A DNA stretch of 64,000 bases from an uncultured SAR86 cluster bacterium (GTDB lineage Bacteria > Pseudomonadota > Gammaproteobacteria > Magnimaribacterales > TMED112): assembly GCA_902610995.1 (NCBI GenBank), contig CACLXU010000003.1, positions 1 to 64,000 of the forward strand, given 5' to 3'. A model generated the notes under the pieces. It saw only the letters and a list, made by a program, of their open reading frames with translations. It was not told the origin of the DNA and did not search any database. Both the position numbers and the translations under genes were made by a program. Below, one piece after another: positions 41,982 through 62,552 of the stretch (position 1 is the first letter of the stretch; each line of letters starts with the position of its first letter).

Positions 41982-42564
41982 AAATTTCTACAACACACAT
42001 ATCACCAAGATTAGATTTATATGTGTGTATCTTGTAATCATATAACAAAGGCTTTATTTCTAATATCTCTTCTTGGGTTTTTTCGTTGTTCTTTTTGAAA
42101 AAAAGGAGGTTCGCTCTTTTTTTGTTAGGCTTAGATTTTTGAATGGCGGTTTTCAGTGTTGAAAATGCCTTAAAAACAGCTGTATGCTCATTTGAGAAGT
42201 TATGTTCTTCAAGTCTCGTGTGTTTACAGGCCGCGTTCTGAAGTTCTAGTTTTCTTATAAGTGTTTTTTGAAATTCTATTTTTTTCTGACTGGAATCAAT
42301 GCTGAGGACTTTTATTTTTTCGTTAAGAATGGCCCAAACAAGCCCAGGTATACCAGAGCCAGAACCATAGTCAATTAGGTTTTCTTTAACGGACTGTGCA
42401 CAAATGTTATATGCTTGCACACAATCATCAATTTGCTCAAAAAAGAATTTATCTCCATGTTTGTAGGAGGTAAGGTTGTGTTTTTCGTTTCCCTCCACAA
42501 TAAGTTTCGAGAGGGTTTTTAGTTTTTTTATTTTAGCTTCTGATAGCATCAATCTTTTTGGCAT
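41971..42564 (-). CDS. rsmG: 16S rRNA (guanine-527-N7)-methyltransferase RsmG
   Basis: 197 aa; NLIDYGSGSGIPGLVWAI...SIDSSQKKIEF; position between parA and mnmG. Start may be MLSEAKIKK (42549). Confidence 0.92.
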   Translation of the reverse strand: MPKRLMLSEAKIKKLKTLSKLIVEGNEKHNLTSYKHGDKFFFEQIDDCVQAYNICAQSVKENLIDYGSGSGIPGLVWAILNEKIKVLSIDSSQKKIEFQKTLIRKLELQNAACKHTRLEEHNFSNEHTAVFKAFSTLKTAIQKSKPNKKRANLLFFKKNNEKTQEEILEIKPLLYDYKIHTYKSNLGDMCVVEIYDN

Positions 42565-44341
42565 GTATTGTAATCACATTCAGTGCAGCTGGTGTGATGC
42601 CTTCAATTTTGCTTGCATCTAAAAGGGTTTGGGGTTTGTGGTAATTGAGTTTTTCTTTCAGCTCTCCAGAAAGGCCTACAACTTCTTGGTAGTCAAAAAT
42701 TAAACCTAGAGAAAAATCGTCTAATGTTTTCATTTTCTCTATTTCTCTTTCTTGCTTCTTAACATAACCGGAATATTTTGCATCATAATAAACTGCCGTG
42801 AATTCAGAGGTGTTGTCTGGATTAAGTTTAAACACATCTTGTTCTGAAAAGTCGCTTCTCTTGCATAGGTCATAAAGTGTTACTTTTTTGCCGGTGAGGT
42901 TTATTGAATTGCCTCTTAAAGAAACCAGAACTTTTTGTTTTTTTCTTTGTTTTTGATGAAAGGCCTCTATTCTTTCTTCACTCAAAAGATTAAGTTTTTT
43001 TGCAGACTCAAAGAGTCTTTCGTCAGCATTCTCCTGCCTAAGAAGCAGCCTATGTTCTGCCCGTGATGTGAACATTCTGTAGGGTTCGCTTACTCCAAAT
43101 TTTGTTAAATCATCAACCAAAACACCAAGGTAAGAGCTTGATCTTTGTGGCACCCATTTTTCTTTCCCCAGCACATTTAGTGAAGCGTTTATTCCAGCAA
43201 TAATTCCTTGTGCACCTGCTTCCTCATATCCTGTGGTACCATTAATCTGACCGGCCAGATAAAGGTTGTCGGACTTTTTAAATAGCAGGTCTTTGCTCAT
43301 GTTTCTTGGGTCAATATAGTCGTACTCCACTGCATATCCATATTGGAGTATTTTTGCATTCTCAAACCCCTTTATTGATTGAACGTATTCTTCTTGTGTC
43401 TCTTTTGGCAAACTTGTAGATATGCCATTAGGGTACATCCAATCAGAATCAATTCCCTCTGGCTCTAAAAAAATTTGATGGTCTTTTTTTTCTGAAAACC
43501 TGACAATCTTGTCTTCAATGGAGGGGCAATATCTGGGGCCCACCCCACTTATCAAACCGGAATACATTGCTGACTTCTTTATGTCTCTATTGATAATTTT
43601 ATGAGTTTCAGGATTCGTTCTGGTTATATGACATATTGTTTGTTGAGGATGTTGATTTTTTTGTCCCAAAAATGACATGTACAACCCGCTTTCACCTGGT
43701 TGCTCCTCGAGACCCCTAAAATTAATTGTCTTCTTTGAAAGTCTTGGGGGTGTTCCTGTCTTAAGCCTACCAAGTGTTACATCTTTTGAAAGAAAATACC
43801 TTTCTAAGCCAGTTGATTTTTTTTCATCAATTCTACCACCATCGACTTTTTTTGATCCAATCAAAATTGACCCGTTTAGAAATGTACCGGTTGTTAGCAC
43901 AAATGATTTTCCAAAATATTCACCCCTCTTTCCTCTTGCTGAAATGATTTTATTGTTTTTTTCACAAAAATCCTCGACTTCGTCCTCTATAACATGAATA
44001 CCAAACTCATTAATAAAACTTTGAATAGTTTTCTCATATAAATTTTTGTCTGTCTGTGCTCTTAATGCTTGTACTGCTGGCCCCTTTTTTTTGTTAAGTG
44101 TTTTAAACTGAATTCCAGAAAGATCGGTTGCTTCGGCAATGACTCCTCCAAGCGCATCTATTTCTCTGGCTAAATGTGTTTTACCTATACCCCCAACAGC
44201 AGGATTACATGACATTCTTCCAATCTTTTCCTGATCTAATGTAATGAGAGCAACGTCAAGCTTCATCCTCCTGCCTGCAACAGCAGCTTCAACACCAGCA
44301 TGCCCTCCTCCTATTACTATTAAATCAAACTTATTATTCAT
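42533..44341 (-). CDS. mnmG: tRNA uridine-5-carboxymethylaminomethyl modification enzyme MnmG (GidA)
   Basis: 602 aa; FDLIVIGGGHAGVEAA, GRMSCNPAVGGIGKTHLAREIDALGG, FTSRAEHRLLLRQENAD. Confidence 0.98.
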   Translation of the reverse strand: MNNKFDLIVIGGGHAGVEAAVAGRRMKLDVALITLDQEKIGRMSCNPAVGGIGKTHLAREIDALGGVIAEATDLSGIQFKTLNKKKGPAVQALRAQTDKNLYEKTIQSFINEFGIHVIEDEVEDFCEKNNKIISARGKRGEYFGKSFVLTTGTFLNGSILIGSKKVDGGRIDEKKSTGLERYFLSKDVTLGRLKTGTPPRLSKKTINFRGLEEQPGESGLYMSFLGQKNQHPQQTICHITRTNPETHKIINRDIKKSAMYSGLISGVGPRYCPSIEDKIVRFSEKKDHQIFLEPEGIDSDWMYPNGISTSLPKETQEEYVQSIKGFENAKILQYGYAVEYDYIDPRNMSKDLLFKKSDNLYLAGQINGTTGYEEAGAQGIIAGINASLNVLGKEKWVPQRSSSYLGVLVDDLTKFGVSEPYRMFTSRAEHRLLLRQENADERLFESAKKLNLLSEERIEAFHQKQRKKQKVLVSLRGNSINLTGKKVTLYDLCKRSDFSEQDVFKLNPDNTSEFTAVYYDAKYSGYVKKQEREIEKMKTLDDFSLGLIFDYQEVVGLSGELKEKLNYHKPQTLLDASKIEGITPAALNVITIHAKKIDAIRS

Positions 44342-44526
44342 CTTTTGTTTATTGTTATTATTTAGCTTGTAGCTTTATGTTAATAAGTGTGAATTATATA
44401 TTTAAAATAAGGTGTGCATCAAAACCAAACTACATAAGATTTTTGTTTAAAACCTTTTAGAATTATATGTTTTTACTGTGCACACATTGTTAATAAATAA
44501 TTACCAACAATTTAAGCACAAGAAAT
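44342..44526. other. oriC: Candidate chromosomal replication origin (oriC) between mnmG and mnmE
   Basis: Largest intergenic gap in the 30.7-62 kb block (185 bp), very AT-rich, upstream of mnmG/gidA as for E. coli oriC. Near-consensus DnaA boxes (8/9): tgtgaatta 44388-44396, tgtgcatca 44413-44421, ttaagcaca 44512-44520; weaker palindromic tgtgcaca at 44477-44484. Confidence 0.45.
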
Positions 44527-45831
44527 CTATTTGCCTATGCAGAACTTTTGAAATATTTGATCTAATATTTTTTCGTTATCAAAATCGCCATATATTTCTT
44601 TCAGAAGAATTAATGCGTCCCTTGCATTCTGTGCATTAATTTCATAAAAATCCTTTTCGTTACTGGAAGCAGATAGTGTTTTAACTGTTTTTTCAATATT
44701 TCCATAAACCCTTTCCGAGGTGTAAAAAACACTTTCCTCAACGTTTAGTTTTTTTATTAACTCTTCCACTAAAACATTCATCCCCTCACCAGTTTTTGCT
44801 GAAAGAGGGATCCAACCCTTTGGTATAGTGCGCCCTTCAAAAAGATCTATCTTGTTCATAACTAAAAGATCGGTTTTTGGTTTATTTTTAAAATTACTTT
44901 CTTGATCACTAACCCAAATAGATATTTCAGCACCATCTAGAGCTTTGTAAGATTTTTCAATACCTTCTTGCTCAACAAGGGTTTCACCGTTTCTTATTCC
45001 TGCAGTGTCATTTACCTCAAGCTCAATCCCTTCCATCACAATCGTTTTCCTCACCACATCCCTTGTTGTCCCAGGAGTATTAGAAACTATGGCTATATCT
45101 TCTTTAAGCAACCGATTAAACAAAGATGATTTACCAACATTTGGCGGACCTATTATTACTGCCCTTTGTCTAGCTTCTAGATCTCTAATCGGCCTGTAAT
45201 TTTTTAACAATCTTTTAAGATCATGTAAGATTTGCTCAATATTTTTAGCAATTTCATTTCTTTCTAAATCCGAAACCCCATCTTCGTCAGAAAAATCAAG
45301 CTGAGACTCTAATGCAACCAATAAGCTTTCTAACGAATTAGATATGTTGAATATTTTTTGACCTAAATCCCCTGATCTAAATTTTTCTAAAGAAATAAGG
45401 TCATTCTTGTTTTGTGCTTGTATTCCTAACATAAGGCTCTCAGCCTCGTCCAAACTAACCTTTCCATTTAAATACGCTCTTTTGCTGAAGTCTCCTGGTG
45501 AAGCTTCTTCAACACCATACCCATCCAGCAAGGTGAACACATCAGCTATAATCACTGGGTTGCCATGACAATGTATTTCTATCAAATGCTCCCCCGTGTA
45601 TGATTCAGGCGCTGGGAAATTTAAAACCAGGCATTTATCAGAATAATCACCCAGATCGATTTTTCTTACAAAACACCCCCTTGAGTTTTTTTGCAAGGAA
45701 AGCTTCTCAAGAAGTTTTTTTGGGATTGAGGTGCCAGTAACTCTTATTACGGCGATAGCTGATCGACCTGAAGGGGTTGCTAAAGCATATATTGTGTCAA
45801 TTTTATCAGCCACCTCCACCACTGCCATCAC
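44527..45831 (-). CDS. mnmE: tRNA modification GTPase MnmE (TrmE)
   Basis: 434 aa; IYALATPSGRSAIAVIRVTG, GPPNVGKSSLFNRLL...TPGTTRDV, C-terminal FCIGK. Confidence 0.97.
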   Translation of the reverse strand: MMAVVEVADKIDTIYALATPSGRSAIAVIRVTGTSIPKKLLEKLSLQKNSRGCFVRKIDLGDYSDKCLVLNFPAPESYTGEHLIEIHCHGNPVIIADVFTLLDGYGVEEASPGDFSKRAYLNGKVSLDEAESLMLGIQAQNKNDLISLEKFRSGDLGQKIFNISNSLESLLVALESQLDFSDEDGVSDLERNEIAKNIEQILHDLKRLLKNYRPIRDLEARQRAVIIGPPNVGKSSLFNRLLKEDIAIVSNTPGTTRDVVRKTIVMEGIELEVNDTAGIRNGETLVEQEGIEKSYKALDGAEISIWVSDQESNFKNKPKTDLLVMNKIDLFEGRTIPKGWIPLSAKTGEGMNVLVEELIKKLNVEESVFYTSERVYGNIEKTVKTLSASSNEKDFYEINAQNARDALILLKEIYGDFDNEKILDQIFQKFCIGK

Positions 45832-47323
45832 TAAACTGAACTCTACCCATTATTATCACCTGAGGGATTATGGATAACACCATATTAATGACTGAATAAA
45901 TTACAACCCCAGCCGGCATGAACAAAAAGATAACAGTTATCATTGGTGGAAATACAACCATCATTTGTTGGGCTATTTGTGCTTGCATCCCCTGGGTCTG
46001 TGGTGGTTTTGGCATCATTTTTTGTGAACCATACATCATTAACCCCATAAGAATCGGAGTAATTAAAAATGGATCAGATTCAGCAAGATCAGGGATCCAT
46101 AGAAACGAAGCACCCCTGAACTCAAACGCTTCTCTAGTAACCCAAAACATAGCAATAAAAATCGGCAGCTGTGCAAACAATGGCAAACACCCAGCCGCTG
46201 GATTAAACTTTTCTTTTCTGTAAAGCTGTGTCATCTCCATTGCAAGTTTTTGTTGGTCGTTCTTATATTCTTGTTGTATTTCTGCAAGCCTTGGAGAAAG
46301 CCGTCTCATTTTTACCATGGAATTAATTTGCATTATCTGAAGTGGAGACAAAACAATTTTAAAAAGAACGGTCAAAAGAACTATCGCAACTCCCCAGTTT
46401 TGCACAAACCCATATAAAAAATTCATGACAACTATGAAAAATTCACCTATCCCAAAAACAAAACCAAGATCTAGGTTGTATTTAAAGTGAGGCGCAATTT
46501 TTTCGAGAACTTCTTTCTTTTTGGGTCCCAGATAGAGGTTGGTTGTGCTTTCGAGAACCCCTTCTGAACTTACCATTTGCTCTTCAAACCCAAACCTAAA
46601 TAAACCATTAGCATCTTCGGGGTACAGGGTGATTTTCTGATTATCCAAACTATCAAAAACTGCAACCACAAAATGCTTTTGTGAATGTCCAACCCAATGT
46701 CCTAAATAATCCTCTCTCGATTTTACAGAGGACAGCTGCTCATCATTAAAAACATCTTCAGTGGTGCTATAAGCCAAATGGTCTCTAGAGAATGCTGTTC
46801 CATAATCCACAGACTTGTTTCTGTTTCTATAAAAGGTTTTAAAAATATTTACTGAACCATATGCAGGCACCGACAAAAATAACTTATCCTTAATATCTAC
46901 AACATGCCCACCTGAAAGCTTAAATGTTTTCTCAAGCCTGTTGCCAGCCCCATCAACGGATGAAATTATTAGGGTGTCTGAAAGCCGCTCTTGAACCACA
47001 AAGTCTTTACCAGAAAACCCAGATACGTTTGTTCTAAAATAAAACCGTAGCAAATCGTCATCTGAAAGGAGCCTTGTTTTATATAGGCCATCTCGCTCCG
47101 CTGTTTCCATAATAAATGCATTTTTAATTGACCCATCTCTTAGGTCGACGTAAATCTCAAGTTCATTGTTTGATATTTTTTCCTGGCTAGCATTTACAGC
47201 CAGATTCTGAACATAGACAGAGGTGTTTGTTTTTTCATCTTTGTTGATGTTGCCCCAATCAAAAACCAACAACAACACAAAAACCATTGTTAAAATTAAA
47301 AAAACACTTCTTGGATTAACCAT
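45806..47323 (-). CDS. yidC: Membrane protein insertase YidC
   Basis: 505 aa; periplasmic domain plus NWGVAIVLLTVLFKIVLSPLQ...YRKEKFNPAAGCLPLFAQLPIFIAMFW. Confidence 0.97.
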   Translation of the reverse strand: MVNPRSVFLILTMVFVLLLVFDWGNINKDEKTNTSVYVQNLAVNASQEKISNNELEIYVDLRDGSIKNAFIMETAERDGLYKTRLLSDDDLLRFYFRTNVSGFSGKDFVVQERLSDTLIISSVDGAGNRLEKTFKLSGGHVVDIKDKLFLSVPAYGSVNIFKTFYRNRNKSVDYGTAFSRDHLAYSTTEDVFNDEQLSSVKSREDYLGHWVGHSQKHFVVAVFDSLDNQKITLYPEDANGLFRFGFEEQMVSSEGVLESTTNLYLGPKKKEVLEKIAPHFKYNLDLGFVFGIGEFFIVVMNFLYGFVQNWGVAIVLLTVLFKIVLSPLQIMQINSMVKMRRLSPRLAEIQQEYKNDQQKLAMEMTQLYRKEKFNPAAGCLPLFAQLPIFIAMFWVTREAFEFRGASFLWIPDLAESDPFLITPILMGLMMYGSQKMMPKPPQTQGMQAQIAQQMMVVFPPMITVIFLFMPAGVVIYSVINMVLSIIPQVIIMGRVQFSDGSGGGG

Positions 47324-47729: not shown

Positions 47730-47775
47730 GTGTTCGTTTTCTTTTTAAGTTTGTTACTTTTAGTGTTCTTTTCAT
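47641..47775 (-). CDS. rpmH: 50S ribosomal protein L34 (missed by ORF track)
   Basis: Translated from reverse strand: [44 protein letters not shown] (44 aa), canonical L34. Confidence 0.97.
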
Positions 47776-47777
47776 TT

Positions 47778-47786
47778 TTATCCACA
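47778..47786. promoter_or_regulatory. Perfect DnaA box TTATCCACA in the rpmH/dnaA divergent region
   Basis: ttatccaca matches consensus TTATNCACA 9/9; 2 bp upstream of rpmH start codon, about 70 bp from dnaA start. Confidence 0.8.
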
Positions 47787-47855
47787 GTTTTTTAACAAAT
47801 TAACAATATAGTTGTTACATGTTTTTAAAAGCTTTTGTATTATAAACTTATCGCG

Positions 47856-50251: not shown

Positions 50252-54582
<4,331 letters not shown>

Positions 54583-62337: not shown

Positions 62338-62488
62338 ATTTATTGCTGGAGCTGTGTGTCCAAGCTGTGGAGATATAGACTCAATTGTTTTAAAAAACGA
62401 CGACTCAATAGTTAAATGTATTTCCTGTAATTATTTTGAAAAGAAAGACAATAACGGCGAAGAATCAATTAGAATAATAAACGATTAA
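62324..62488 (+). CDS. YheV-like putative zinc ribbon protein
   Basis: 54 aa: MKGYKFIAGAVCPSCGDIDSIVLKNDDSIVKCISCNYFEKKDNNGEESIRIIND; CxxC...CxxC zinc ribbon. Start inside the 62282 ORF. Confidence 0.85.
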   Translation: MKGYKFIAGAVCPSCGDIDSIVLKNDDSIVKCISCNYFEKKDNNGEESIRIIND

Positions 62489-62552
62489 ATCTATAACTAT
62501 TGATGGTATTTATTACTCGACATTAGCAATATTTATAGTACTATATGCGTAC

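Follow-up and report, generated by a model that had tools for sequence, protein, structure and literature searches.

The 185-bp intergenic gap between the tRNA-modification genes mnmE and mnmG in this marine SAR86 genome is probably an origin of replication of the E. coli type, placed directly upstream of mnmG and unusually compact. We favour this reading because the E. coli layout of DnaA sites together with an easily melted stretch recurs in every SAR86 relative checked. The gap matches E. coli oriC in the order, polarity and spacing of its parts, and its anatomy is conserved in length and phase. The window (the whole stretch of DNA analysed, 64 kb of contig C3) comes from an 861-kb genome that is 80% complete and probably belongs to the family CHAB-I-7 (GTDB TMED112), whose members have fast-evolving genomes of ~1 Mb (PMC11582366). 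Relatives were taken from whole-genome searches and comprised 20 genomes of the same genus (0.7–1.2 Mb) and 20 from the other families of the order (1.2–1.8 Mb); stretches reading N in some of them were ignored. A literature search found no study of a SAR86 replication origin.

From the mnmE stop (44527) to the mnmG start (44341), the DNA is non-coding and has a GC content of 23%, in line with the very AT-rich gap noted in a preliminary description of this sequence. That description also took it for the main non-coding gap of an otherwise gapless stretch. Spaces above 50 bp are indeed few, the only others between glmS and coxB being the rpmH–dnaA spacer (83 bp) and positions 62338–62552 (215 bp). 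The latter was rejected as a second origin candidate because part of it looks coding in relatives, where it resembles a conserved cysteine-rich reading frame before coxB that is missed by the ORF listing. An Rfam scan of the region gave no match above threshold, and scans for terminators and promoters returned counts equal to those in shuffles.

Coordinates of the candidate origin, its parts and neighbouring features in the window
Feature	Position	Strand	Remarks
Candidate oriC, whole mnmE–mnmG intergenic region	44342..44526	- (read mnmE to mnmG)	185 bp; one profile match per genome
mnmG (gidA)	42533..44341	-	Translation P0002; E. coli MnmG hits the corresponding gene at SAR86 loci L214 and L215
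mnmE (trmE)	44527..45831	-	Translation P0003
DnaA-trio-like array / putative DNA unwinding element TAAATAATAACAATAAACAAAAG	44342..44364	-	Abuts mnmG ATG; 85% pairwise identity in genus
13-nt spacer	44365..44377	-	Sequence variable (46% pairwise identity), length nearly constant
R1-like DnaA box TTATTAACA	44378..44386	-	Closest box to unwinding element; near-invariant in genus
TATAAT hexamer, putative -10 of mnmG promoter inside candidate origin	44393..44398	-	16/16 genus genomes
DnaA-box-like site TTTTAAACA	44444..44452	-	Gap columns 75–83; ACA kept in most genus members
DnaA-box-like site GTGTGCACA (CTATCAACA in relatives)	44477..44485	-	Gap columns 42–50; ACA invariant
DnaA box TTATTAACA	44488..44496	-	Gap columns 31–39; ACA invariant; 11 bp from neighbouring box
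DnaA box TTACCAACA, opposite orientation, R4-like	44501..44509	+	Gap columns 18–27
Outermost box-like site TTAAGCACA	44512..44520	+	Gap columns 7–15; only TGT (ACA) core invariant
rpmH–dnaA spacer, apparent divergent promoters	47773..47855	.	Two tandem DnaA boxes; dnaA autoregulation or second origin module
parS-like site TGTTCTACGTGGAACA	50660..50675	.	Inside recF
Second parS-like site TGTTCCACGTAGAACA	51284..51299	.	At end of recF, inside gene

Read from mnmE towards mnmG, the modules of the gap are a box in opposite orientation close to the mnmE edge, a pair of boxes separated by 11 bp, another box-like site (the fourth), TATAAT, the R1-like box TTATTAACA, a 13-nt spacer and the array. Four relaxed DnaA boxes cluster within this one intergenic region (dinucleotide-shuffled versions of the gap give 0.49; P 0.007), with phased box-like columns across 16 genomes, and the AT-rich trio array lies beside a DnaA box, 13–15 nt after TTATTAACA. 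The combination of a box, 14 nt and WAATAAYAA occurs once in the 64-kb window, where 0.04 would be expected. Three sites put forward earlier as 8/9 boxes, tgtgaatta (44388), tgtgcatca (44413) and ttaagcaca (44512), each carry two mismatches to TTATCCACA and are thus 7/9 matches, and the first two are not kept in relatives. The palindrome tgtgcaca reported at 44477 is present and is included in the site GTGTGCACA at 44477–44485. The best-conserved sites, TTATTAACA at 44378–44386 and again at 44488–44496 (both on the minus strand), had been overlooked. Within the genus, most boxes in the gap differ from TTATCCACA at two positions; the R1-like box reads TTATTAACA, TTATCAACA or TTATGCACA there and TTATCCACA or TTTTCCACA in other SAR86 families, and the counterpart of the TTACCAACA box in relatives is TGTGGATAA or TGTTGATAA on the other strand.

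In the genus alignment, every third position of the array is an invariant A as far as the mnmG start, and the spacer before the array is 1 nt shorter in one genome alone (G007). The window has seven consecutive NAN trios, and none of the 16 genus genomes has fewer than seven. An N-terminal extension of mnmG in place of the trios was rejected for the window, where an in-frame TAA precedes the array and no ATG, GTG or TTG lies between. Under the published rule for a DnaA-box plus DnaA-trio system (BUS), which allows a box with up to two mismatches and a spacer of up to 16 nt and calls for at least three NAN trios (PMC8287927), the window's gap shows TTATTAACA, a spacer of 15 and seven trios. The commonest spacer length among predicted origins with this system is 13 nt (PMC8287927). 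The SAR86 element differs from that system (PMC8287927) in having a single R1-type box beside the trios, with no obvious tandem pair, and trios of AAT/TAA type, where the commonest published trio is TAG.

Comparison across species gives these features their weight. The gap measures 183–185 bp in 16 same-genus genomes, while MnmE identity among them is only 42–53%. The preliminary description had let its proposal depend on conservation of the gap in related genomes, and on this point the proposal stands. Pairwise identity of the gap within the genus is 0.62, versus 0.31 expected from composition and 0.37–0.43 at four-fold synonymous sites of mnmG, mnmE, dnaA and dnaN. By module, identity is 0.59–0.72 in the boxes, 0.75 in the -10 region, 0.85 in the trio array and 0.39–0.46 in the spacers. 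In other SAR86 families, the gap is 208–266 bp long with the same core, and lies between mnmE and mnmG in every family sampled; the best named hit, an uncultured SAR86 contig (L031), shares its 208-bp gap and core with genome G034 of family f3, which identifies the order as SAR86 (Magnimaribacterales). A profile of the gap matched each of the 16 genus genomes strongly at a single place (E 1e-21 to 1e-34) and gave weaker single matches in other families, located in the mnmE–mnmG gap wherever coordinates were comparable. At stricter filters, 102 of 151 genomes had no match, including incomplete genus members and distant families; in the distant families without a match, the gap is nevertheless present by synteny.

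These data bear on the alternative in which the gap is an ordinary AT-rich spacer with boxes arising by chance. Relaxed boxes are common in AT-rich DNA, and several single genomes do not rise above their shuffles. The argument from boxes in a single sequence is weak because the counts in most relatives are mildly, or not significantly, above shuffles. A chance origin of the boxes is, however, contradicted by the cross-species phase, by the constant length, by identity well above that of four-fold sites and by the single strong profile match per genome, and we give it a negligible probability. The comparison across species is the strongest evidence against chance, above any single-sequence count.

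The core of the gap resembles that of E. coli oriC (mnmG/gidA–mioC, NC_000913 3925744–3925975), which likewise lies directly upstream of mnmG. In E. coli K-12, read from mioC to gidA, TTATCCACA is followed by GGGCAGTGCGATC (13 nt) and then by CTAATAAGAGATCACAATAG, giving a core of TTATCCACA, 13 nt and CTAATAAG on the mnmG side. In SAR86, the core is TTATTAACA, 13 nt and (C/T)TAATAATAACAATAAACA, with polarity towards mnmG as in E. coli, and the window's own element (TAAATAA) has one substitution relative to CTAATAA/TTAATAA. The gap thus combines an R1 box, a 13-nt spacer and a CTAATAA-type element with mnmG polarity. The likeness extends to the orientation of the R1-type box, to the length of the spacer between R1 and CTAATAA, to the position of that element on the mnmG side and to an outer box on the far side in opposite, R4-like orientation. 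The earlier proposal of an E. coli-like oriC in the mnmG–mnmE gap, apart from rpmH–dnaA, is supported by this R1-like box, 13-nt spacer and trio element in all SAR86 families sampled.

Several features set the SAR86 gap apart from E. coli oriC. Its whole spacer is only 185 bp, the unwinding element runs right up to the mnmG ATG, the candidate origin includes a TATAAT, the neighbour is mnmE instead of mioC, dnaA is only 3.4 kb away and the boxes are weaker. GATC sites are few or absent (the window's gap has none, and no gap examined has more than one), and SeqA was found in none of 21 genus genomes. GATC/SeqA sequestration is a regulatory feature of E. coli and is not defining for oriC. For an IHF site between R1 and the distal boxes, matches to the consensus in the gaps had one mismatch at best and differed in position between genomes, giving no consistent site. 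An Hda-like protein separate from DnaA (e.g. in G000:C11) scores above DnaA on the Hda model and below the model cut-off, and SAR86 may keep DnaA inactivation after initiation, though not sequestration. In Vibrio cholerae, mnmE-yidC-rnpA-rpmH lies beyond mioC. The V. cholerae ori1, a 474-bp gidA–mioC intergenic region (PMC6284228), can be likened to the SAR86 gap by its position upstream of gidA/mnmG, but mioC is present there and the region is much longer.

A motif derived from the core (TTATNMACA-13-YTAATA) was also searched in 185 genomes of the class. Outside SAR86, it gave 28 readable loci, of which eleven were at dnaA, dnaN or mnmG: eight in the dnaA–dnaN spacer next to dnaN, two near dnaA and one upstream of mnmG (named examples at dnaA–dnaN are L049, L058 and L109). 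The motif thus follows the loci of origins. Beyond the sampled SAR86 genomes, box-13-trio motifs resembling an origin also occur in the mnmE–mnmG gap of Pseudohaliea rubra (L104, a related motif) and of Gammaproteobacteria MED-G141 (L083); given the former, SAR86 is not alone in having the motif at this position. Within SAR86, dnaA and dnaN are separated by at most 7 bp in all 34 genomes measured, and this closed spacer holds no box cluster.

The conserved TATAAT hexamer raises the alternative that the gap is a DnaA-regulated promoter and leader of mnmG, with no origin. The hexamer is present in all 16 genus genomes, 6–7 bp from the R1-like box, which would then overlap the transcription start, and DnaA regulates the trmE operon in B. 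subtilis (PMC8203912). The -35 partner of the hexamer at 44393–44398 is weak, and the promoter count of the region equals chance. A promoter would need neither a fixed length of 183–185 bp, nor outlying box pairs in two orientations, nor an array resembling the E. coli DUE, with A at every third position, that reaches the start codon; moreover, the order-wide alignment shows the box-13-trio core, whereas TATAAT is not evident in it. We consider a promoter without an origin quite improbable.

A more serious competitor lies at the rpmH–dnaA spacer, the location of the Pseudomonas-type oriC. The gene-orientation switch that the preliminary description placed there is real, 3.4 kb from the gap. 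PMC4285127 cites Yee and Smith 1990 for a class of origin separate from the E. coli type. The SAR86 replication origin might lie in, or need, the rpmH–dnaA spacer, either by itself or as the second half of a two-part origin that loops across mnmE-yidC-rnpA-rpmH; the gap would then be an auxiliary DnaA cluster. The one perfect box of the region, TTATCCACA (47778–47786), is in this spacer, 2 bp from a second box, TTTTTAACA (47789–47797); under the loose published rule it is followed in the window by four NAN trios, identity within the genus reaches 88.6% over the 80 bp upstream of dnaA, and box pairs are present in other SAR86 families too. A point against an origin in the gap is that mnmE, yidC, rnpA and rpmH would be head-on to a rightward fork. 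The spacer is, however, only 83 bp long (~80–160 bp in SAR86, with the proposed origin 3.4 kb off, as distinct from a Pseudomonas-type oriC), and is apparently filled by divergent promoters, which would explain much of its conservation. Its trios are short (three to four after the tandem boxes in the genus) and, judged by eye in the order-wide spacers, show no consistent conservation outside the genus, in contrast to the box-13-trio of the gap. It also has no E. coli-like unwinding element of the form R1-13-CTAATAA, and a two-part origin would span 3.4 kb, versus a maximum of about 2 kb for known two-part origins (PMC4285127). We therefore regard an origin in, or dependent on, the rpmH–dnaA spacer as unlikely.

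Divergent rpmH and dnaA promoters together with dnaA autoregulation can explain the conservation of this spacer, and under the favoured reading of the gap as oriC its boxes probably serve mainly to control dnaA. As an observation in its own right, identity there (88.6%, against 0.62 in the gap and near 40% at synonymous sites) exceeds the obvious needs of two promoters and two DnaA boxes. The strength of this conservation is the main reason why we call the mnmE–mnmG origin probable and go no further.

Strand composition did not separate the two sites. The cumulative GC-skew minimum of the window is near 59–60 kb, and the complete genomes of two relatives (G007 and G012) start at dnaA, with the skew changing sign around dnaA/mnmG. 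In sampled stretches of these two genomes (L111–L150), leading and lagging genes hardly differ in GC or TA skew at four-fold sites. GC skew therefore reflects mainly gene orientation, such that 44.4 and 47.8 kb are not separable, and it was rejected as an arbiter of the origin site; the position of its minimum, named in the preliminary description as a possible refutation, was uninformative. Across the co-directional genes of 42533–47323, synonymous-site composition flips, the mnmG coding strand being A-rich and those of mnmE and yidC T-rich (pooled genus). This local jump between mnmG and mnmE was set aside as an origin signal, since it goes with operon blocks and its sign is opposite to that expected of a simple origin effect.

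The surroundings also speak for an origin at the gap: the genes rsmG, parA and parB follow mnmG, and two parS-like sites, about 620–630 bp apart, lie 6–7 kb away. Of 21 genus genomes, 17 have this variant parS, GTTCYACGTRGAAC, at two positions and no more, one has it once and three lack it.

From the sequence, we infer DnaA binding, melting and initiation at the gap as follows. DnaA would bind the phased mnmE-side boxes as well as TTATTAACA, the R1-like box, which would direct it across the 13-nt spacer and on to the strand that carries the DnaA trios in the AT-rich array by mnmG; the array would then melt, allowing the helicase to be loaded. The same 185 bp would also carry the mnmG promoter. 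The location of TATAAT, with the boxes on one side and R1 on the other, suggests that transcription of mnmG passes through the unwinding element, and, more speculatively, DnaA occupancy and mnmG transcription may interfere with each other.

This is probably an oriC of a known kind in a new lineage. At 185 bp, the SAR86 element falls below the ~250–950 bp quoted for continuous origins (PMC4285127). Metagenome growth-rate tools based on peak-to-trough ratios can place the origin by dnaA (PMC7852909), and a defined SAR86 origin would for that reason be a useful anchor. The finding also bears on the relocation of oriC, within Gammaproteobacteria, between mnmG and the dnaA locus, as the two loci here are 3.4 kb apart and an unwinding element like that of E. 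coli is present on the mnmG side alone. There is a small chance that the origin is divided or transitional, with a 185-bp unwinding module of E. coli type at mnmG and a nearly invariant DnaA-binding module at rpmH–dnaA, 3.4 kb and four genes away. If so, SAR86 would represent a living intermediate between Pseudomonas-type and enterobacterial-type origins, in which origin and mnmG promoter are fused within a very short spacer.
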